This document shows positions 31,915-39,541 of a stretch of 52,564 nt of DNA, one piece after another. Source of the stretch: a virus; the IMG/VR virus record IMGVR_UViG_3300042945_003702, positions 1 through 52,564 of that record, one strand, 5' to 3'. The position numbers and the translations under genes are program-made. Numbering within the stretch: position 1 is the stretch's first letter; each line of letters opens with the position of its first letter. The notes beneath the pieces are model-generated. The model made no database searches and was not told the DNA's origin. It saw only the letters and a program-made list of their open reading frames with translations.

Positions 31915-32064
31915 TTAGACGTCGTACTCCCGGCACTCAAGAGCGCTGGGGTTCTTCCTGCAGTACTCCTCTAGCGAGAGGATAGGAGCCCCGGTGCTCT
32001 GATCGATGGGTAGAGTGAAGTCCTCGGAGGACTTTACGTTGTCGGAGAAGGTTACGTGTTCCAT
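31915..32064 (-). CDS. Mini CP12-like protein (Calvin-cycle inhibitor motif)
   Basis: From ATG 32064 the product has 49 residues ending SLEEYCRKNPSALECREYDV. This matches the C-terminal loop of CP12 (C-x8-C, NPxxxEC, xYD), which in cyanobacteria binds GAPDH and, with PRK, shuts down the Calvin cycle. C35 and C44 would form the redox disulfide. The N-terminal CP12 half (central AWD_VEEL and first Cys pair) is absent. Phage CP12 is known to redirect carbon to the pentose phosphate pathway; this would be a minimal form. The gene follows the tRNA-Val gene directly. Confidence 0.65.
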   Translation of the reverse strand: MEHVTFSDNVKSSEDFTLPIDQSTGAPILSLEEYCRKNPSALECREYDV

Positions 32065-32080
32065 TGCTGTGGTGTGATAT

Positions 32081-32141
<61 letters not shown>

Positions 32142-32151
<10 letters not shown>

Positions 32152-32267
32152 TCTTCGGGCTCGTCCTCGTAGCTACTAGGTTCCTCGAAGAGCTCGCGCA
32201 ACTTGAGTCTGTTAGCCAGTTCTAGTAACTGCGAGAAATCCTCTTCCTTGGTTAGTTGTTCAGCCAT
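32142..32267 (-). CDS. Short acidic peptide between tRNA genes
   Basis: A 41-residue frame (MAEQLTKEEDFSQLLELANR...) that is helical and then acidic (SSYEDEPEEGG). Its last codons overlap the 5' end of tRNA-Val, so the two transcripts interfere or are processed apart. A GTTTAAAG at 32275-32282 lies only seven nt upstream, too close for the usual promoter spacing. Unknown function. Confidence 0.5.
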
Positions 32268-32290
32268 CGGAAAGCTTTAAACTGTTTTAT

Positions 32291-32373
32291 GCGCGAGAGA
32301 GGACTTGAACCTCCACGGGGTTGCCCCCACGGGTATCTAAAACCCGGGCGTCTACCAATTCCGCCACTTGCGC
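32291..32373 (-). tRNA. tRNA-Leu (UAG)
   Basis: Class II tRNA with anticodon loop TTTAGAT and a long variable arm (GTGGGGGCAACCCCGT). The acceptor GCGCAAG/CTCGCGC has one A-C mismatch. Confidence 0.93.
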
Positions 32374-32378
32374 GAGGT

Positions 32379-32450
32379 GCTCGATGCGAGGATCGAACTC
32401 GCCTATATCCGATTATGAGTCGGGTGCTTTCACCAGATAGCTAATCGAGC
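32379..32450 (-). tRNA. tRNA-Met/Ile2 (CAU)
   Basis: Cloverleaf with anticodon loop CTCATAA. The CAU anticodon could be elongator Met or a lysidine-modified Ile tRNA; sequence alone does not decide. Confidence 0.93.
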
Positions 32451-32454
32451 GAGT

Positions 32455-32525
32455 AGGACCGCGGAGACTCGGACTCCGTTCACTCCGTTATAAGCAGAGG
32501 GCCTTAACCCATAGGCGACGGTCCC
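32455..32525 (-). tRNA. tRNA-Ile (UAU)
   Basis: Anticodon loop CTTATAA, stem CTCTG/CGGAG. The T-loop is TCCGAGT, slightly unusual. This tRNA would read the rare AUA codon. It is the first tRNA downstream of the sigma70-like promoter. Confidence 0.88.
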
Positions 32526-32558
32526 AAAGCTCACCGACCGTGTCTCCGGTGTATGTAC

Positions 32559-32587
32559 ATTATACCATATGTTGGGACAACAATCAA
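32559..32587 (-). promoter_or_regulatory. Sigma70-like promoter for tRNA segment
   Basis: On the minus strand TTGATT, then exactly 17 nt, then TATAAT preceded by TGG (extended -10). It points into the Ile-Met-Leu-Val tRNA segment and the CP12-like gene. It looks suited to the host RNA polymerase, so these genes may be early. Confidence 0.7.
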
Positions 32588-32618
32588 TAGGAGGCTTAGC
32601 GTACCGGCTATCTGAAGG

Positions 32619-32780
32619 TCATAGGTACGCAATGTCTCGCGAATCGACAGGAATAAATGATCCATCGGTGGTTCTGACAATAAATACGGCGTAGTACCCC
32701 GGAAAGTCCGCCGATACCCCCTGTATTATACCCGTTCTCCAGAGTTTGTAGTAGGTAAAGCCTACGCGTCTCCCCCTCAT
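32619..32780 (-). CDS. Small basic protein, 53 residues
   Basis: The frame (MRGRRVGFTYYKLWRTGIIQ...) overlaps the stop of the upstream gene by ATGA, which supports translation. It is beta-rich in character (YYAVFIVRTTDGSFIPVDS). Function unknown. Confidence 0.55.
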   Translation of the reverse strand: MRGRRVGFTYYKLWRTGIIQGVSADFPGYYAVFIVRTTDGSFIPVDSRDIAYL

Positions 32781-33229
32781 TTGCCGCCGGAGTGGACGGA
32801 TGGTAGGTTGGGGAACACGGACTCTAGGACGTTAATCTGGCCCACCAGCACCCCCACAACTAGCAAAGCCCCACCTAACAACCACTTGAATCTCGATAAG
32901 TCGTCTATGCGAGAGCCCAGTACCTTCACCTCCTTATCCACCTTCGTATCGAGGTCACTTATCTCGTCGGTGGTGGACTTTATCTCCCGGGCGTGATTGG
33001 ACTTTAGCTCATCTAGGAGCTTTATTATCGCTGTGTCTGACTGTATGCTCTGGTCCAGGCGTTCCTCGTGTCTTACGAGGATCTTCGCCACGTTCTGATT
33101 GGCTTCTGAGATCTTGTCTACAGCCGTCTCGAGTTTGGAGAGCATCTCTCTGGAGAGATCCTCGTAGACGTTTAGTTTTTCCTCTAGAACGGCGAGTCTT
33201 ACGTTTGAGGAGCCAAATAAGTTAGCCAT
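32777..33229 (-). CDS. Membrane-anchored coiled-coil protein
   Basis: The 150-residue protein has a long N-terminal coiled coil (residues about 12-112; RLAVLEEKLNVYEDL, ISDLDTKVDKEVKVLGSRID). A single transmembrane helix (WLLGGALLVVGVLVGQI, about 115-131) follows, and then a short polar end. The order resembles XhlA-type phage proteins that help lysis, but those are shorter. It may also tether a complex to the membrane. GTTTAAAG lies 42 nt upstream of the start. Confidence 0.65.
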   Translation of the reverse strand: MANLFGSSNVRLAVLEEKLNVYEDLSREMLSKLETAVDKISEANQNVAKILVRHEERLDQSIQSDTAIIKLLDELKSNHAREIKSTTDEISDLDTKVDKEVKVLGSRIDDLSRFKWLLGGALLVVGVLVGQINVLESVFPNLPSVHSGGK

Positions 33230-33271
33230 ACGGGATCGGATATGCGTAACGAATCGTACTACCAGTTATTA

Positions 33272-33279
33272 CTTTAAAC
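33272..33279 (-). promoter_or_regulatory. GTTTAAAG promoter-like element
   Basis: GTTTAAAG on the minus strand between tRNA-Thr and the coiled-coil gene, 42 nt before its ATG. Confidence 0.4.
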
Positions 33280-33282
33280 AAA

Positions 33283-33355
33283 GCCCCCTGTCGGACTCGA
33301 ACCGACGACCTACGGTTTACAAAACCGGTGCTCTATCCAGCTGAGCTAAGGAGGC
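33283..33355 (-). tRNA. tRNA-Thr (UGU)
   Basis: Complete cloverleaf, acceptor GCCTCCT/AGGGGGC, anticodon loop TTTGTAA, T-loop TTCGAGT. Confidence 0.95.
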
Positions 33356-33358
33356 GGG

Positions 33359-33431
33359 GTGTAGGACGGGACTTGAACCCGCATAAACTAGAATCACAAT
33401 CTAGTGCATTAGCCAATTATGCTACCTACAC
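33359..33431 (-). tRNA. tRNA-His (GUG)
   Basis: Acceptor GTGTAGG/CCTACAC with anticodon loop TTGTGAT. Stems are well paired. Confidence 0.95.
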
Positions 33432-33433
33432 AT

Positions 33434-33504
33434 GGCAGTAATGGGATTTGAACCCATAATTCCGTCGTTATGAATGACGGGCTTTACCGTTAAGCTATAC
33501 TGCC
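33434..33504 (-). tRNA. tRNA-Met/Ile2 (CAU), second
   Basis: Anticodon loop TTCATAA; acceptor GGCAGTA/TACTGCC. The anticodon stem CGTCA/CGACG has one mismatch next to the loop. This is the second CAU tRNA, so one of the two may be Ile2. Confidence 0.9.
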
Positions 33505-33508
33505 TGGC

Positions 33509-33597
33509 GGAAGATGTTGGATTTGAACCAACGGAGCCGGGTGTACCGACTCGGCGGTTTAGCAAACCGCTGCCTTAAGCCTCTCGGCCAATCTTCC
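33509..33597 (-). tRNA. tRNA-Ser (GCU)
   Basis: Class II tRNA, anticodon loop TTGCTAA, long variable arm, acceptor GGAAGAT/ATCTTCC. Confidence 0.95.
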
Positions 33598-33616
33598 AAT
33601 GTTGCCCGAAGGCAAT

Positions 33617-33697
33617 GCTCATGAAGGGACTTGAACCCCTACGCCTTACGGCACGTGCACCTCAAGCATGCGTGTCTACCAATTCCACCACACGAGC
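33617..33697 (-). tRNA. tRNA-Leu (GAG)
   Basis: Class II tRNA, anticodon loop TTGAGGT with one A-C mismatch in the stem, variable arm TGCCGTAAGGCG. A TTGCC-CGAA-GGCAA hairpin lies in the adjacent spacer at 33602-33615. Confidence 0.92.
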
Positions 33698-33701
33698 TGG
33701 A

Positions 33702-33771
33702 GTTTCAGGTCAGAATCGAACTGACGATAGAGGCTTTGCAGGCCTCCGCCTTACCACTTGGCCACTGAAAC
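33702..33771 (-). tRNA. tRNA-Cys (GCA)
   Basis: Anticodon loop CTGCAAA; acceptor GTTTCAG/CTGAAAC. It is followed by TCCA, that is U73 plus an encoded CCA end, extending the gene to 33698. Confidence 0.95.
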
Positions 33772-33789
33772 ATTTGCCTTTTGGCAAGC

Positions 33790-33862
33790 GCTCTCTGAGA
33801 GATTTGAACTCCCGACACCCTGGTCCGTAGCCAGGTGCTCTAGTCCGCTGAGCTAAGAGAGC
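33790..33862 (-). tRNA. tRNA-Arg (ACG)
   Basis: Acceptor GCTCTCT/AGAGAGC, anticodon loop CTACGGA. A34 would need conversion to inosine by host TadA. A TTGCC-TTTT-GGCAA hairpin lies in the 3' spacer. Confidence 0.95.
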
Positions 33863-33867
33863 ATGGC

Positions 33868-33937
33868 ACCGAAACAAGGACTTGAACCTTGGATAACAGT
33901 TTTGGAGACTGTCGTGTTACCACTACACTATTTCGGT
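33868..33937 (-). tRNA. tRNA-Trp (CCA)
   Basis: Anticodon loop CTCCAAA; acceptor ACCGAAA/TTTCGGT, followed by an encoded GCCA end (to 33864). Confidence 0.95.
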
Positions 33938-33955
33938 ATGTTGCCCGAAGGCGAT

Positions 33956-34027
33956 TGGAACGACGAGGTTTGAACTCGTGACCTCACGATTATCGGTCGT
34001 GTGCTCTACCAACTGAGCTACGTTCCA
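33956..34027 (-). tRNA. tRNA-Ile (GAU)
   Basis: Anticodon loop CCGATAA, acceptor TGGAACG/CGTTCCA. The spacer next to it has a TTGCC-CGAA-GGCGA hairpin. Confidence 0.94.
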
Positions 34028-34192
34028 TTATGTGCCCGTGGTGGGGAATGATCCCACTCTCAATAGACTTGAGGTTTCGTACAAGAAGAACTCTTATGAG
34101 GGAGAATCTTATCAGTGTGGGTTCAGCACACCTATCTAAAACTACTTTGTCAAGTTGAACCCTATTTTACCGTCCCAACGGCAAAGGCAAGC
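34028..34192. other. Spacer with tRNA-like remnant
   Basis: About 165 nt without a complete tRNA. On the minus strand a variable-arm-like hairpin (CTCAA-GTCTA-TTGAG) is followed by GTGGG-ATCATTC-CCCAC and CACGGGC. This looks like the 3' half of a class II tRNA, but no matching 5' half is seen. A second hairpin GTGTG-GGTTCAG-CACAC lies at 34117-34133. Confidence 0.3.
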
Positions 34193-34264
34193 GGGAACAG
34201 TCGGAATCGAACCGACAACACCACGATCTTCAATCGTGTGCTCTACCGTTGGAGCTACGTTCCC
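34193..34264 (-). tRNA. tRNA-Phe (GAA)
   Basis: Anticodon loop TTGAAGA; acceptor GGGAACG/TGTTCCC. All arms are present. Confidence 0.95.
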
Positions 34265-34268
34265 TGGC

Positions 34269-34341
<73 letters not shown>

Positions 34342-34375
34342 ATATACGCCGGCGCGGGCGAGGGTATCCACCTAC

Positions 34376-34392
34376 GGAAACGGGAACCGTTT
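34376..34392. other. Spacer hairpin in tRNA cluster
   Basis: GAAACGG-GAA-CCGTTTC forms a perfect seven-pair stem in the spacer between tRNA-Arg and tRNA-Ala. A CCCCC-GCGA-GGGGG tetraloop hairpin lies nearer tRNA-Ala. Confidence 0.6.
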
Positions 34393-34468
34393 CTCTACGA
34401 TGTGGCTTAGGGGACCCTTCGTTTAAGCCTCCGTTCCTTGGAGGCCCCGAACCCCCGCGAGGGGGCAT

Positions 34469-34540
34469 GGAGAGTAGGAGGCTCGAACTCCTGACAGCCT
34501 GCTTGCAAAGCAGGTGCTCTACCAGCTGAGCTAACCCCCC
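34469..34540 (-). tRNA. tRNA-Ala (UGC)
   Basis: Anticodon loop TTTGCAA; acceptor GGGGGGT/ACTCTCC with two G-T pairs. Confidence 0.94.
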
Positions 34541-34558
34541 TGGCGGCCCTTTTGTTAA

Positions 34559-34605
34559 AGCGGTAGAGCCGAACCGCATCAATGGAGAACGTTTGGACCG
34601 TTCTC
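34559..34605. other. Two spacer hairpins between tRNA-Ala and tRNA-Pro
   Basis: GCGGT-AGAGCCGA-ACCGC and GAGAACG-TTTGGAC-CGTTCTC follow one another. They may guide tRNA precursor processing. Confidence 0.55.
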
Positions 34606-34609
34606 GAGT

Positions 34610-34680
34610 CGGGGTGAGAGGGATCGAACCTCCGACATCCTGCTCCCAAAGCAGGCGCGCTACCGCTGCGCTACACCCCG
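34610..34680 (-). tRNA. tRNA-Pro (UGG)
   Basis: Anticodon loop TTTGGGA; acceptor CGGGGTG/CACCCCG, the Pro-typical C1-G72 pair. Confidence 0.95.
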
Positions 34681-34740
34681 TGATGGCCCCATTTAACACG
34701 TTAGAACACGGCTCAAGACCGGCCAGAGGTGGGGGCTAGG

Positions 34741-34764
34741 GGCTCCGGTAGTGACCCCGGAGCC
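34741..34764. other. Perfect 8-bp hairpin
   Basis: GGCTCCGG-TAGTGACC-CCGGAGCC. There is no T-run, so a terminator is unlikely. It is the strongest local structure in the long tRNA-cluster gap. Confidence 0.6.
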
Positions 34765-34825
34765 GCCTGTCACTAGGCTGCCCGATGCTTACGCAGAGCG
34801 GGAACGAGGCAGGTGTCTCTACGCT

Positions 34826-34877
34826 GTACGTTCCTTACGTGTCACCAGCTCTGTCGTACGTTCCCTACGTGTCACCA
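34826..34877. repeat. Tandem 22-nt direct repeat, 30-nt period
   Basis: GTACGTTCCYTACGTGTCAC plus CA occurs at 34826-34847 and 34856-34877, with a single difference (T or C). Each unit contains two ACGT palindromes, so it may be a protein-binding site. Confidence 0.7.
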
Positions 34878-35201
34878 ACAGTTCAACTCCTTTTGCTTTC
34901 CTTACCTCGGCAGGGTGCCGCTACCTCCCTTTTTTGCGGCGTGTGTGTACGTTTCGTTTATCTGGGTACGTTACTAGACCCAGGATACTGCTTACTGTAC
35001 CCGCATCAAGTCGTGAGTGTCGTTAACGCTTGAGCATGGAATGGGAGTTCACCCATTCATCACTTATTTGGGAGCCTGAACTATGACTCTTACAGGCAGT
35101 TTGGCATTTTTCTCGCTCCCAGACTACGCAAACTGCCAAATGGCATCTGGGCACAAGCCTACTTCCCCCTCGTCTAGTAGGCGTCGCATGGACGAGGGAA
35201 C

Positions 35202-35272
35202 TGGCCCGGCAGGGATCGAACCTGCGACAACTTGATTAACAGTCAAGCGTTCTACCGCTGAACTACAGGCCA
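35202..35272 (-). tRNA. tRNA-Asn (GUU)
   Basis: Anticodon loop CTGTTAA; acceptor TGGCCTG/CGGGCCA. Confidence 0.95.
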
Positions 35273-35278
35273 TTGAGC

Positions 35279-35360
35279 GGAGAGGAAGGGACTCGAACCC
35301 CCGAGGCTTTTACACCCAACAGTTTTCAAGACTGCGCCCTCGACCAACCGGACCCTCTCC
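35279..35360 (-). tRNA. tRNA-Ser (UGA)
   Basis: Class II tRNA, anticodon loop CTTGAAA, long variable arm, acceptor GGAGAGG/CCTCTCC. Confidence 0.93.
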
Positions 35361-35413
35361 GTGAGGTTTGCCACCGGCATTCCGGATTATCAGCTCCGGC
35401 GCGAAGTGGCGAC

Positions 35414-35486
35414 GACCCATACGGGATTTGAACCCGTGATCTCCACCGTGACAGGGTGGCGTGATAGACCGCTACACTAATGGGTC
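35414..35486 (-). tRNA. tRNA-Asp (GUC)
   Basis: Anticodon loop CTGTCAC; acceptor GACCCAT/ATGGGTC. The spacer before it contains a GCCAC...GTGGC inverted repeat. Confidence 0.95.
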
Positions 35487-35491
35487 AAGGT

Positions 35492-35572
35492 GGGTAGGGG
35501 TGGATTTGAACCACCGATGGCAGAGCCGCCTGATTTACAGTCAGGTTCCTTAAACCACTCGGACACCTACCC
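35492..35572 (-). tRNA. tRNA-Tyr (GUA)
   Basis: Class II tRNA with anticodon loop CTGTAAA; acceptor GGGTAGG/CCTACCC. Confidence 0.95.
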
Positions 35573-35591
35573 AAAACAGTTTATGTTTGCC

Positions 35592-35609
35592 GACCGAGCT
35601 GAAACGGTC
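35592..35609. other. Spacer hairpin in tRNA cluster
   Basis: GACCG-AGCTGAAA-CGGTC between tRNA-Tyr and tRNA-Lys. Confidence 0.5.
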
Positions 35610-35612
35610 AAT

Positions 35613-35683
35613 GGGTCTGGTGGGGCTCGAACCCACAACTTCCAGGTTAAAAGCCCGTTACTCTGCCATTGAGTTACAGACCC
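35613..35683 (-). tRNA. tRNA-Lys (UUU)
   Basis: Anticodon loop CTTTTAA; acceptor GGGTCTG/CAGACCC. The outermost pair of the anticodon stem is mismatched. It is the 5'-most tRNA of the dense cluster on the minus strand. Confidence 0.92.
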
Positions 35684-35994
35684 ATAAAAGGTTTAGATTG
35701 TCAAGGTTCGGGGGTCGTGGGGGGGCCGGAGAAGTCCGTCTCCCTTGACCATGAGACTAATATATCAGAGACGGGAGGCTTTGGGAATGGCCTGGTGGAC
35801 GGTTGGTAAGCTGTCCACTTCGGTCTCCGCGCAAAAGAAAAGAGGGGAGAAGTCTTTTTGACCTCTGCCCCTCCTGTAATTTGCTTATAGAGTTTCCCGT
35901 ATTAGCAAACAAGAGGGGCCAGCACCGCATCTCTCGGTGAGGGGTTCTTAAATGCAATATACGAGAAGTTAGTCATACTAGTCTATAAACACTG
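35684..35994. other. Non-coding region with strong stem-loop
   Basis: No convincing gene. It contains a GTCAAGG...CCTTGAC inverted repeat (about 35699-35748) and a long imperfect hairpin at 35842-35873. Confidence 0.5.
35842..35873. other. Long stem-loop, possible RNA structure
   Basis: GAGGGG-AGAAGTC with loop TTTTT pairs with GACCTCT-G-CCCCTC in a stem of about 12-13 pairs with one bulge. It could be a small RNA or a terminator for the hli operon. Confidence 0.45.
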
Positions 35995-36255: not shown

Positions 36256-36450
36256 TCAGAAGACTCCGAAGAAGAGCTTACCAGTGAGAGCGTAAGAAAC
36301 AGCACCAGCAATAATACCGACCATAGCCCAGCGTCCATTAGTGCGTTCCTTCACCTGGTTGGGGGTGAGCATGCCGTAGTTTTCGTAGTACATGACAGGC
36401 TCTTTGGCCCACATGTTCTGCTGGCCACGCTCGTTAGTTGTAACCGTCAT
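36256..36450 (-). CDS. hli: High-light-inducible protein (Hli), second
   Basis: From ATG 36450 (GGAG ribosome-binding site) the product has 64 residues: a polar N-terminus (MTVTTNERGQQNMWAKEPV), then ERTNGRWAMVGIIAGAVSYA and LTGKLFFGVF. The NGRWAM..G motif marks it as Hli. A longer frame from 36483 is less likely. Along with the neighbouring Hli, it should protect photosystem II during infection. Confidence 0.9.
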   Translation of the reverse strand: MTVTTNERGQQNMWAKEPVMYYENYGMLTPNQVKERTNGRWAMVGIIAGAVSYALTGKLFFGVF

Positions 36451-36488
36451 AGAGAAGTCTCTCCACATTTCCTTAACCATCATATCAT

Positions 36489-36513
36489 AAAAATGGGGGG
36501 CTTGTGGCCCCCC
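36489..36513 (-). terminator. Terminator after porin gene
   Basis: On the minus strand GGGGGGC-CACAA-GCCCCCC is followed by ATTTTTAT. It is a strong intrinsic terminator downstream of the SLH porin gene. Confidence 0.9.
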
Positions 36514-36539: not shown

Positions 36540-37415
36540 TCAGAACTTGATGCCCAAGCCGGTCGTGAAGACGGGGCTGTAGGAGGATCCGGTAACGCCG
36601 GAGTTTGTCGTGGGGAACTTCAGGTCGGCAAAGCCGATCAGTGAGTTGGTCAGACGACCCTCGACGCCCAGAGCGAATACCACCTGACCCTTATTCCCAA
36701 CCGCGGACTGGAAGTTGGAGGTGGTGTTATTCACAAAGGGAATCTGGTAACCGACACCGGCATACAGATTGGCCTTGCTAACACCACTGGAGGCTTTGGC
36801 CAAGCTCATATCGTAGGAGATGAGGCCACCACCACCGGCCCCGATCTGGCCCGAAGGACTCCCGACCAGGTTGGCGTAGGGGCGCACCGAGATGGCGTTC
36901 TGGTTGGAGAAGGTCTTGGCGGAGTAACGGGCCTGGATCGTGGCACCAGAGACGGTGCGATTAGCCCCGTAGCCATTGCCATTGACACCCTGGCGATCCA
37001 ACAGAACACCGGCACCCAGGTAATTACCCACACCCTGAGCTTTTTGCGCTGCTGCGACTTCCAAAGCAGTTACACGGGAGTTGGTCTGAGCGATCTCTCT
37101 GCCGAACTCGGCCCGGAGAGCAGCGGCAGTCTGGGCGTCAGCGGCGGAGTAGAATTCGGTGATACGATCGAGACAGGCATTTGTCAGAGCGGCAAGCTCA
37201 GCACGGGTGGCGGGCTGACCTGGCTTAAAGGTGCCGTTCGGGTACCCGGCCACGCAACCGTAACGGGAGATTAGGTTGGAGACGGCTTGGTACGACCACT
37301 CGGTGGGCTGAACGTCGCGCAGTTGACCAACGCTTGTTACTTGAGCCATGGCGGCCATCGGAGCAATCATGGTAACAGCGCTGATGGCACCAATTGCAGA
37401 GACGAGCTTTTTCAT
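36540..37415 (-). CDS. Cyanobacterial-type SLH porin, shortened
   Basis: The 291-residue protein has a signal peptide (MKKLVSAIGAISAVTMIAPM, cleavage near AMA-Q). An SLH domain follows (about 25-85; DVQPTEWSYQAVSNLISRYG, VAGYPNGTFKPGQPATRAEL, LTNACLDRI). Next is a short coiled coil (AQTNSRVTALEVAAAQKAQ), then a beta-barrel-like part ending in Phe (TTGLGIKF), which suits outer-membrane insertion. Host porins of this type usually have about 500 residues, so the barrel is much reduced. It probably inserts in the host outer membrane or binds the wall. A phage role in nutrient uptake or superinfection exclusion is speculation. Confidence 0.85.
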   Translation of the reverse strand: MKKLVSAIGAISAVTMIAPMAAMAQVTSVGQLRDVQPTEWSYQAVSNLISRYGCVAGYPNGTFKPGQPATRAELAALTNACLDRITEFYSAADAQTAAALRAEFGREIAQTNSRVTALEVAAAQKAQGVGNYLGAGVLLDRQGVNGNGYGANRTVSGATIQARYSAKTFSNQNAISVRPYANLVGSPSGQIGAGGGGLISYDMSLAKASSGVSKANLYAGVGYQIPFVNNTTSNFQSAVGNKGQVVFALGVEGRLTNSLIGFADLKFPTTNSGVTGSSYSPVFTTGLGIKF

Positions 37416-37500
37416 ACTTTCTTAAGAATGTTTGGAACGTGAAGGGGTTACGCGTCTCTCTAGGCTATTTGCCTAGCAACTACGTTGTTATCCCCTAAGA

Positions 37501-37571
37501 GCGGAATAGGGGATTTGAACCCCTGACATCCTACTTGGAAGGAAGGCGCTCTACCGCTGAGCTAATTCCGC
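37501..37571 (-). tRNA. tRNA-Gly (UCC)
   Basis: Anticodon loop CTTCCAA; acceptor GCGGAAT/ATTCCGC. It lies apart from the main cluster, just upstream of the porin gene. Confidence 0.95.
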
Positions 37572-37725
37572 AGTGACTCCTCTGTTTGAGCTCCGAGATG
37601 GTTATGCTTGAGGAGTGTTCATGTATCTATTATATCAGGTTTATCGACTTCAGTGGGGGTTTTGTAGCCAGTACAAAAAGTGGCTGAAGCAACTGAACTG
37701 CATTTTTAAACTTGGATTTGGGTAG

Positions 37726-38619
37726 TCACCCGAATAGGATGTGGTACCAATGCTCCTCGTCCCCTTCCAAGGAATCCGATTCGGAGAAGTAGGACATGTA
37801 AACTTCATCTGACTCTTTTTGAGCCCTATACGCTTTTTCTGTGGCAGGTTTCATGGAACCGTCCGGCATTTTAATAGAAAACATTTTACCTCCTAATTTT
37901 CTTGGTTTAGAGAATCCGATAGCTACGTAGGCATTTGTTCTTCCTTCTCCCTTTCCGTCCTCCGTGTAGGCCTTAACTTTTACAACGGATCCTTCAGGTA
38001 GAGCTTTTACAAGGGCCTTGAACGCGCGCCGGACTGTAAAAGCGACTTCAATTTGAGCCCTCCTATCAGTCACGGAACCCGCTGCCATAGAGCCATTAAC
38101 ATTAAAACCAAATCCAGTACTTGGGGAATAACTTACATTTACGGCGTCGCCGTGGGAAGTTAAGGACTGGATCCTTAACGTAGCTCCTCCAAAGTCTTCT
38201 TTCCACGAAATTTTGTCTTTGTCTGTTAAAGAATTGCTTAGCGCCTGTACAATTTTAGAGAGCGCTTTTTTCTTGGACGGCCCGTACTTTGAATCTCCGT
38301 TTATTTGTTCTAACACTTCTTTAGCGTCTTCGCTATTTCGTTGCGGTTCTGCTGGTTGCTTAGCTTTTGGTAACTCGGCATTAGGTTCTTTTACTTTTAG
38401 GGCATCTGGGCGGGGCGATGAAGAGGTGCTGTTAGGCCTCTCCATTCTATCATTTTCGCCCGTTAGTTTCCATCTGCCATTAGCCTGTTTTTGAAGTGTA
38501 TGACCGGTCTGCGGATTACGGTAGACTTGTCCGGGCACTGCCGTGTTTCTAATGTTTTCGGGCACCACCTCATCAGAGTAAGAGATTGCCCTCCAGCCCT
38601 CAGGACAACAACTAGCCAT
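37726..38619 (-). CDS. Protein with shared N-terminal domain and unknown C-terminal domain
   Basis: The 297-residue product begins with a domain of about 58 residues (PEGWRAISYSDEVVPENI, PGQVYRNPQTGHTLQKQANG) that is nearly identical in plan to that of the kinase-like neighbour. Residues about 60-110 are a charged linker. A 150-residue alpha/beta domain follows (ISWKEDFGGATLRIQSL, RRAQIEVAFTVRRAFKALVK, VVKVKAYTEDGKG) and an acidic tail. I do not recognise the C-terminal domain. GTTTAAAG lies 25 nt before the ATG. The shared domain may be a targeting or packaging tag for two different effectors. Confidence 0.75.
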   Translation of the reverse strand: MASCCPEGWRAISYSDEVVPENIRNTAVPGQVYRNPQTGHTLQKQANGRWKLTGENDRMERPNSTSSSPRPDALKVKEPNAELPKAKQPAEPQRNSEDAKEVLEQINGDSKYGPSKKKALSKIVQALSNSLTDKDKISWKEDFGGATLRIQSLTSHGDAVNVSYSPSTGFGFNVNGSMAAGSVTDRRAQIEVAFTVRRAFKALVKALPEGSVVKVKAYTEDGKGEGRTNAYVAIGFSKPRKLGGKMFSIKMPDGSMKPATEKAYRAQKESDEVYMSYFSESDSLEGDEEHWYHILFG

Positions 38620-38686: not shown

Positions 38687-39541
38687 CTAGAGACTCTGGA
38701 CTTCTTTCGCGTAGTTAAGGCCGATCTCCGCTCTCTTGGCCACCGCGGCTTTAGATTGGCCCTTGGCCGCTTTGTACTCATCCACGGACTTCCTAACCAG
38801 GTTAACGTACGAATCCTTGTCAAATTCCGGCCTGTAGATATCGATGAGTTTCCCCACCTTATTGAAGTCAACGATGGCTTTCTGAGGATCGTCCTGGATC
38901 TTACCGGAGAGGCCGTAGTCGATGAGGGTGGCGTCCTTGCCCCCCTCACCGTCGGTAAGGAACTGCTCGTTGTGCATGTCGCCATGATAGAAGCCCATCT
39001 TATGGAGGTCCTTGATGGCCGATAGGGCCTTGGAGGCCTGTTCGGTGGTCATCTTGACGTCCCGCTCCTTCTCGTCGTCGGTCCGGTTGAAACCGCCCGA
39101 CCAGAGGGGCTTGCCCTTGGAAAAATCCATCTCGATATGGTCCTTGGAGGCGGAGTAGATCTTAGGGGAGTGGCCAAGCTCTCCCATCTTCCGCCCCAGC
39201 TCCACCTCGTGGGGTCCCCACTCCTTACCCTCCTTGAGGGTCTTGACAACGTGGCCGGTCTGTGGATCCTGGTAGACCACACCGTAGTTGCCCTCGGCAA
39301 GCTTTTTCATCTTGGAGATGTCTGGCATACCGGAGGAGCCGGGGGACTTCTGCTGCCCTCCTACTCTATCATCGCCACCCACCAGCTTCCATCGCCCATT
39401 AGCCTGTTTCTGAAGTGTATGGCCGGACTGGGGATTGCGATAAACCTGCCCAGGCGTAGCGGTCTTCTTGATGGACTCCGGGACCATCTCGTCGGAGTAG
39501 GAGGCCTGCCTCCAGCCCTCAGGCCACCATCCAAGCGTCAT
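38687..39541 (-). CDS. Protein-kinase-like protein with shared N-terminal domain
   Basis: The 284-residue product has the shared domain at residues 1-58. A kinase-like fold follows: LAEGNYGVVYQDPQTG (Gly-loop), VVKTL (K100), HEVEL (possible E for the salt bridge), then FYHGDMHNEQFL (H186, D188) and ATLIDYGLS (DYG for DFG, D208). The catalytic loop has Gln193 where HGDLHPGN-type kinases have Asn. The first domain repeats the Gly-loop region in outline (VYRNPQSGHTLQK versus VYQDPQTGHVVK). It may phosphorylate host proteins or be a pseudokinase. GTTGAAAG lies 25 nt before the ATG. Confidence 0.75.
   Translation of the reverse strand: MTLGWWPEGWRQASYSDEMVPESIKKTATPGQVYRNPQSGHTLQKQANGRWKLVGGDDRVGGQQKSPGSSGMPDISKMKKLAEGNYGVVYQDPQTGHVVKTLKEGKEWGPHEVELGRKMGELGHSPKIYSASKDHIEMDFSKGKPLWSGGFNRTDDEKERDVKMTTEQASKALSAIKDLHKMGFYHGDMHNEQFLTDGEGGKDATLIDYGLSGKIQDDPQKAIVDFNKVGKLIDIYRPEFDKDSYVNLVRKSVDEYKAAKGQSKAAVAKRAEIGLNYAKEVQSL

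Follow-up and report, generated by a model that had tools for sequence, protein, structure and literature searches.

An SLH-domain gene in a cyanophage genome

Does a cyanophage that encodes an SLH-domain outer-membrane protein thereby install its own porin in the host, and if not, what would such a protein do? The gene at issue lies on the minus strand (36540..37415) of a 52.6-kb virus record, the whole of which (52,564 nucleotides) was analyzed and is referred to here as the window. A sequence-only reading of this DNA had proposed a phage-encoded SLH porin with a reduced barrel, laid out like the longer host porins. The viral origin of the gene is borne out by its surroundings. The window carries psbA, speD, hli, 23 tRNA genes and a tail sheath gene. 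Its capsid protein and that of S-TIM5 are 85% identical, on which ground we assign the window to an S-TIM5-like cyanomyovirus, of a different lineage from the T4-like S-PM2. These flanking genes, together with the capsid, rule out host DNA misbinned as viral, and relatives of the gene are encoded on at least 115 IMG/VR contigs.

Directly upstream on the same strand is a tRNA-Gly(TCC) gene (37499..37571, minus strand), and downstream is an hli gene (36256..36483, minus strand) with a weak Chloroa_b-bind match, which is a neighbor in many relatives. The same-strand pairing with tRNA-Gly(TCC) is also seen in S-PM2, where hli likewise lies downstream, and is kept in 26 of the 55 distinct relatives; a tRNA-Gly/hli-linked gene is common to T4-like S-PM2 and to the S-TIM5-like phage of the window. 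Across the family, the gene is found with tRNA-Gly(TCC) upstream, with hli and then psbA downstream, or in a replication cluster near gp46/47 and gp44/45. These are not the neighborhoods of virion genes, in agreement with the outer-membrane rather than virion placement that had been proposed.

Twenty-two of the tRNA genes form a cluster at 31915-35684, the tRNA-Gly at 37499 bringing the number to 23. In S-TIM5 (L351:3634-4879), PstS occupies the slot upstream of hli where the window has the SLH-domain gene, which suggests that this slot is exchangeable for envelope or uptake genes. Two adjacent minus-strand genes of the window (37726-38619 and 38687-39541) have in common an N-terminal segment of about 55 amino acids (a 165-nt repeat, 73% identical); in the product of the second, a similarity to protein kinases (Pkinase, E 6e-5) is weak and falls under the cut-off.

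Domain architecture of the protein

The 291-residue product starts with a signal peptide (residues 1–24, MKKLVSAIGAISAVTMIAPMAAMA|Q; 37344..37415, minus strand), read by eye from the translation, with a putative cleavage site AMA|Q after residue 24. The same pattern, AMA or a similar triplet followed by Q, recurs in the phage family. An SLH domain follows at residues 33–75 (37191..37319, minus strand), scoring 43.6 bits with Pfam PF00395 against a cut-off of 20.8, and lies within a match to the porin model por_somb at residues 26–124. In 55 of the 56 members of the family, Cys54 and Cys81, the latter just past the SLH domain, are the sole cysteines, and two conserved cysteines in this region are consistent with an oxidizing periplasm. 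In the full-length AlphaFold2 model, a long helix spans residues 91–127 (37035..37145, minus strand), also within the por_somb match, and is probably a periplasmic coiled-coil stalk; eight strands across residues 132–290 come next. The C-terminal outer-membrane barrel (residues 132–291; 36543..37022, minus strand) ends in GLGIKF. Signal peptide, SLH domain, stalk helix, C-terminal barrel and terminal Phe, all anticipated by the sequence-only reading, were recovered from the translation, Pfam and AlphaFold2, and we hold this overall anatomy to be very probably correct. A chance ORF or a truncation is ruled out by the 56 distinct phage sequences, all of 281–301 amino acids, and by their dN/dS of about 0.07–0.18.

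The SLH half resembles cyanobacterial SLH porins. The por_somb model (NCBIfam NF033921) scored 93.8 bits over model positions 1–107 of 485 only; membership in this iron uptake porin family is set at 100 bits for a whole protein over the 485-position model, a threshold that the phage protein did not reach. Matches in the PDB were SLH-OMP entries (8bz2, 8bys and 8bym; E 5e-8 to 9e-7), which supports the identity of the N-terminus. By sequence comparison, the SLH domain and stalk are of the kind that cyanobacterial SLH porins carry. Beyond the stalk, host SLH porins continue for a median of 383 amino acids, as against 161–168 in the phage family, so that the protein is indeed shorter than the host porins. 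The host-like arrangement that had been claimed holds for the SLH domain and stalk; it fails for the barrel, as shown below.

The barrel is predicted to have eight strands and is not a porin barrel

Strands were counted in two AlphaFold2 runs. The full-length model has eight (pLDDT 63, with the N-terminal half at low confidence), and a barrel-only model has the identical eight (pLDDT 72.7, pTM 0.70); model confidence is moderate, in that the strand number agrees across both runs and the loops are uncertain. The top Foldseek matches of the predicted barrel were OmpA, OmpW, Ail, OmpX and NspA, and the nearest viral models were the S-PM2 homologue and gp38 of S-CBWM1. Prediction thus gives the eight-strand barrel of the OmpA family.

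The ancestry of the barrel points the same way. Small OMP_b-brl proteins of about 180 amino acids, devoid of SLH domain and stalk, occur in 36 of 390 Cyanobacteriia genomes. Aligned by hhalign, the phage barrel matched such a host small outer-membrane protein with 98.7% probability (E 2.4e-16), whereas the probability for the picocyanobacterial porin barrel was 0.2%. An HMM built from the host small barrels matched every one of the 56 phage proteins, with a best E of 9e-18, and gave no match among 534 ORFs from the surroundings of host SLH porins, and when host small barrels served as the query, viral contigs again yielded the SLH fusion family. In Pfam, the window barrel had no direct OMP_b-brl (PF13505) match at the 28.7-bit cut-off; the connection is indirect, through host small barrels that score 32–33 bits in PF13505 and align to the phage barrel. 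We conclude from these profile comparisons that the barrel shares its ancestry with stand-alone OMP_b-brl proteins and is unrelated to the porin barrel. What had been described as a porin with a reduced barrel carries instead, in its C-terminal 165 amino acids, a barrel of another, OmpA/OmpX type.

Barrels of the OmpA/OmpX class, with their eight strands, do not usually act as general diffusion pores, and for this reason 'porin' is probably the wrong name for the phage protein; the same consideration weakens the proposals of a phage-installed porin and of altered nutrient uptake. Conductance, or the carriage of small hydrophobic substrates, is possible in certain eight-strand barrels, OmpA and OmpW among them, which is why we infer, rather than assert, that the phage barrel is probably closed.

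Distribution, selection and origin of the phage family

Eighty loci were kept from the at least 115 contigs and gave the 56 distinct proteins, the window's own included. Among 50,697 phage records, the only isolates with the gene are S-PM2, whose copy is annotated 'putative S-layer protein' (Q5GQG9; S-PM2d168), and S-CREM1, whose copy is annotated 'iron uptake porin' (SCREM1_199). Both are family members of the same architecture, 70% (S-PM2) and 73% (S-CREM1) identical to the window protein over nearly full length, and their annotations, which rest on the SLH part alone, are misleading and are corrected here. Since psbA is carried by 512 records and most psbA-bearing isolates lack the SLH-barrel gene, its function is optional.

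In hosts, a search with the barrel profile found no SLH-barrel fusion in either of two genome sets, 390 from across the class and 350 from picocyanobacteria; the same search does recover the phage records. We infer the picocyanobacterial (alpha-cyanobacterial) family assignment, as 54 of 61 genomes contain CsoS2. In 201 picocyanobacterial genomes, the host small barrel gave nothing beyond a single weak partial match, and SLH porins are present in 117 of 121. Across the viral contigs, phage records and host genomes searched, the combination of SLH domain and eight-strand barrel was found in cyanophages only. Short host SLH ORFs (L132, L122 and L190) proved to be porins that are frameshifted, rearranged or incomplete, and none has the small barrel. 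Four viral barrel matches seemed to lack an SLH domain (L323, L340, L343 and L344); three have one and the fourth is cut by the contig end.

The family is under strong purifying selection, with dN/dS of 0.07–0.18 in the informative pairs; the remaining pairs were saturated at synonymous sites, save one near-identical pair that was uninformative. For the barrel alone, dN/dS was 0.09–0.13, with no hypervariability. Predicted loops L1 and L2 are its most variable parts (mean entropy about 1.0, compared to 0.1–0.6 for the strands), and L3, the longest predicted loop, is conserved. In a tree of the SLH–stalk region, which has few columns and is uncertain in its details, the short phage family forms one long-branch clade with 100/100 support, apart from host porins and full-length phage porins.

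The small barrel also exists unfused in a phage. S-CBWM1 gp38 (A0A3G1L3F6) resembles the family barrel in structure (TM 0.68/0.75) and matches the host small-barrel HMM with E 4e-17 in a one-sequence search; it differs in having only 156 amino acids and no SLH domain, and in being unmatched by the phage-family HMM. A plausible origin of the family is the fusion of a porin stalk to a small outer-membrane barrel, possibly inside phages, because S-CBWM1 has the unfused barrel. The gp38 gene (L352:3764-4234), annotated hypothetical, encodes a signal peptide and adjoins a rare-lipoprotein-A-like gene.

Expression signals

Upstream of the tRNA-Gly gene we read from the sequence a tentative, extended -10 promoter-like element, TGATATAAT (37629..37637, minus strand), a putative host-polymerase promoter for a unit of tRNA-Gly and the SLH-barrel gene. 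The default sigma-70 scan of the window did not list it, as it has no -35 match. Directly 3' of the gene, a scan and reading of the sequence identified a strong intrinsic terminator-like hairpin (GGGGGGC-CACAA-GCCCCCC-ATTTTT; 36495..36513, minus strand); of 55 relatives, 36 have a perfect-stem terminator 3' of the gene, against about 0.2 expected from shuffles.

Most relatives carry a further signal. Of 55 relatives, 45 have a T4-type late promoter motif (NATAAATA, the published late motif of S-PM2, or CTAAATA) no more than 80 nt upstream of the gene; for other ORFs the figure is 115 of 548 (Fisher p 2e-19, an optimistic value, as related contigs are not independent). Its position is fixed, at -32 to -43 or at -62 to -76. 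No recognizable T4-type late motif was found upstream of the window copy.

Other elements were seen in passing. The 5' leader of the gene in L005-L079 (e.g., L054, L064 and L077) has a conserved TGTAGTTGTAATTCTTAAC-like sequence, and that of some relatives has an inverted repeat, TTAAGAATT...AATTCTTAA; both are possibly translational or transcriptional control elements. In the window, GTTKAAAG occurs in 21 copies, where 3.2 are expected and none of 100 shuffles had as many. The sites include 6387, 16142, 38645, 39567 and 45231, several of them 15–60 nt 5' of genes, and the motif is possibly the S-TIM5-like phage's own promoter, replacing the T4 late motif.

A possible tether between outer membrane and cell wall

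The reading we favor, and to which we give nearly even confidence, is that the gene product, a chimeric outer-membrane protein specific to cyanophages, serves during infection as a largely pore-less tether of the outer membrane to the wall. It is the simplest reading because the phage protein retains the tether parts of host SLH porins and swaps out the channel, so that the general diffusion pore would be discarded. Once exported, the barrel would insert in the outer membrane via its C-terminal aromatic signal, and, as in proteins of the OmpM/SlpA type, the SLH domain and stalk would extend to the pyruvylated polymer of the cell wall. Made abundantly, the protein would keep the envelope intact at a time when the host no longer synthesizes porins, and it would dilute host porins at the insertion and wall-anchoring sites. 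Such dilution might also lower the porin-based adsorption of a second phage; fewer host porins at the surface, and hence less second adsorption, could be a by-product of tethering or its main benefit.

Two comparisons with known systems bear on this proposal. The host SLH porins (NF033921 por_somb; SomA/SomB; Slr1841/Slr1908) and OmpM/SlpA proteins have, like the phage protein, an N-terminal SLH domain, a linker or stalk and a C-terminal outer-membrane barrel, and by analogy tethering would be expected of both; their barrels are reported to have 16–30 strands (PMC10628300), whereas eight, of another family, are predicted by AlphaFold2 in the phage protein. With OmpA/OprF it has in common an eight-strand barrel and a separate wall-binding part. 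The wall-binding domain of OmpA is C-terminal and of OmpA type, whereas that of the phage protein is an N-terminal SLH domain, the only domain that Pfam found; an OmpA-type C-terminal peptidoglycan-binding domain is absent. The phage protein is, by this comparison, an analogue of OmpA/OprF with reversed domain order and not a member of that family.

The SLH outer-membrane proteins of diderm Terrabacteria, among them the cyanobacteria, act as tethers of the membrane to the wall and at the same time as conduits for solutes (PMC10628300), and in Synechocystis one SLH porin is essential and the loss of another leads to hypervesiculation (PMC8707739). We propose tentatively, with somewhat less than even confidence, that cyanophages make a fusion absent from host gene sets that is a tether without a porin channel, and that tethering is in this way uncoupled from nutrient diffusion. 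If true, this would place envelope stability under phage control during infection, a little-studied aspect of cyanophage biology. Tethering and diffusion reside in the same SLH porins of cyanobacteria, and a widespread phage gene that apparently keeps the one and drops the other would be a natural separation-of-function tool, with which envelope stabilization, the exclusion of rivals or the timing of lysis by phages would be tested.

The cyanophage SLH gene itself is known, being annotated in S-PM2 and S-CREM1, and in 2010 it was suggested to have a protective role (PMC2984593). New are the chimeric architecture and its phage-only distribution. The chimera, its derivation from a small barrel, its restriction to phages and the link to late promoters were all absent from the literature searched, which was poor in subscription journals, and nothing was found there on S-CBWM1 and cyanophage SLH genes.

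Alternative functions

An altered receptor or a block to superinfection, as the sequence-only reading had envisaged, is a possible effect of the SLH-barrel protein, and phage lambda Lom is the comparison case. Here the new barrel and its loops would displace or mask host porins that serve as receptors. Variable loops L1 and L2 and the early-type -10 upstream of the window gene fit such a role, and protection against infection or grazing is what was suggested for the S-PM2 SLH protein (PMC2984593). We nevertheless consider it unlikely as the primary function: the barrel shows no hypervariability, its longest loop is conserved, and an untethered barrel would be enough for exclusion, which leaves the conserved SLH domain unexplained. 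A purely early exclusion factor also fits poorly with the late motif of the relatives.

That late motif would fit a factor for lysis or egress, in which a late SLH-barrel protein would compete for wall sites and insertion machinery and thereby loosen or re-set the envelope. Loss of SLH porins does destabilize the cyanobacterial outer membrane (PMC8707739). Against this, all the parts of a tether are retained and conserved as such, the gene lies apart from the lysis genes in most relatives, and the window copy is without a recognizable late motif. We regard this role, whose expected outcome would be a timed or more complete lysis, as quite unlikely.

Increased nutrient uptake, through a small selective channel for iron or another solute as the S-CREM1 label implies, is very unlikely in our judgment. 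The N-terminus does resemble iron-uptake porins, and the S-TIM5 gene in the slot upstream of hli encodes a phosphate-uptake protein; however, the channel-forming part of the iron uptake porin family is precisely what is missing and replaced, and by a barrel class that usually forms no general pore.

A virion component, such as a tail or capsid decoration with an SLH domain, would be in keeping with the late motif of many relatives, since structural genes use such promoters. The signal peptide, the homology to outer-membrane barrels and the neighborhoods of tRNAs, hli/psbA or replication genes make it highly improbable, and the cyanomyovirus signature structural proteins marked as detected by mass spectrometry in a partial list (S-PM2_043, 163, 165 and 251) do not include the S-PM2 homologue (PMC2984593). 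A decaying or truncated host porin, acquired by chance, would account for the short length, yet has virtually no chance of being correct, as it is refuted by a barrel from another family and contradicted by the constant length, purifying selection, old separate clade and existence in phages of intact full-length porins as a separate class.

This second class of phage SLH porin, of about 486 amino acids, is present on at least 506 viral contigs and clusters with picocyanobacterial porins (L202-L281). The S-SRM01 porin (QPX48248; L084:8016-9473) is likewise a phage-encoded SLH porin and differs from the short family in its full length of 486 amino acids, its por_somb score of 286 bits and its grouping with host porins. 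Judged by these sequence relationships, porins of the S-SRM01 type are an acquisition separate from the short SLH-barrel family.
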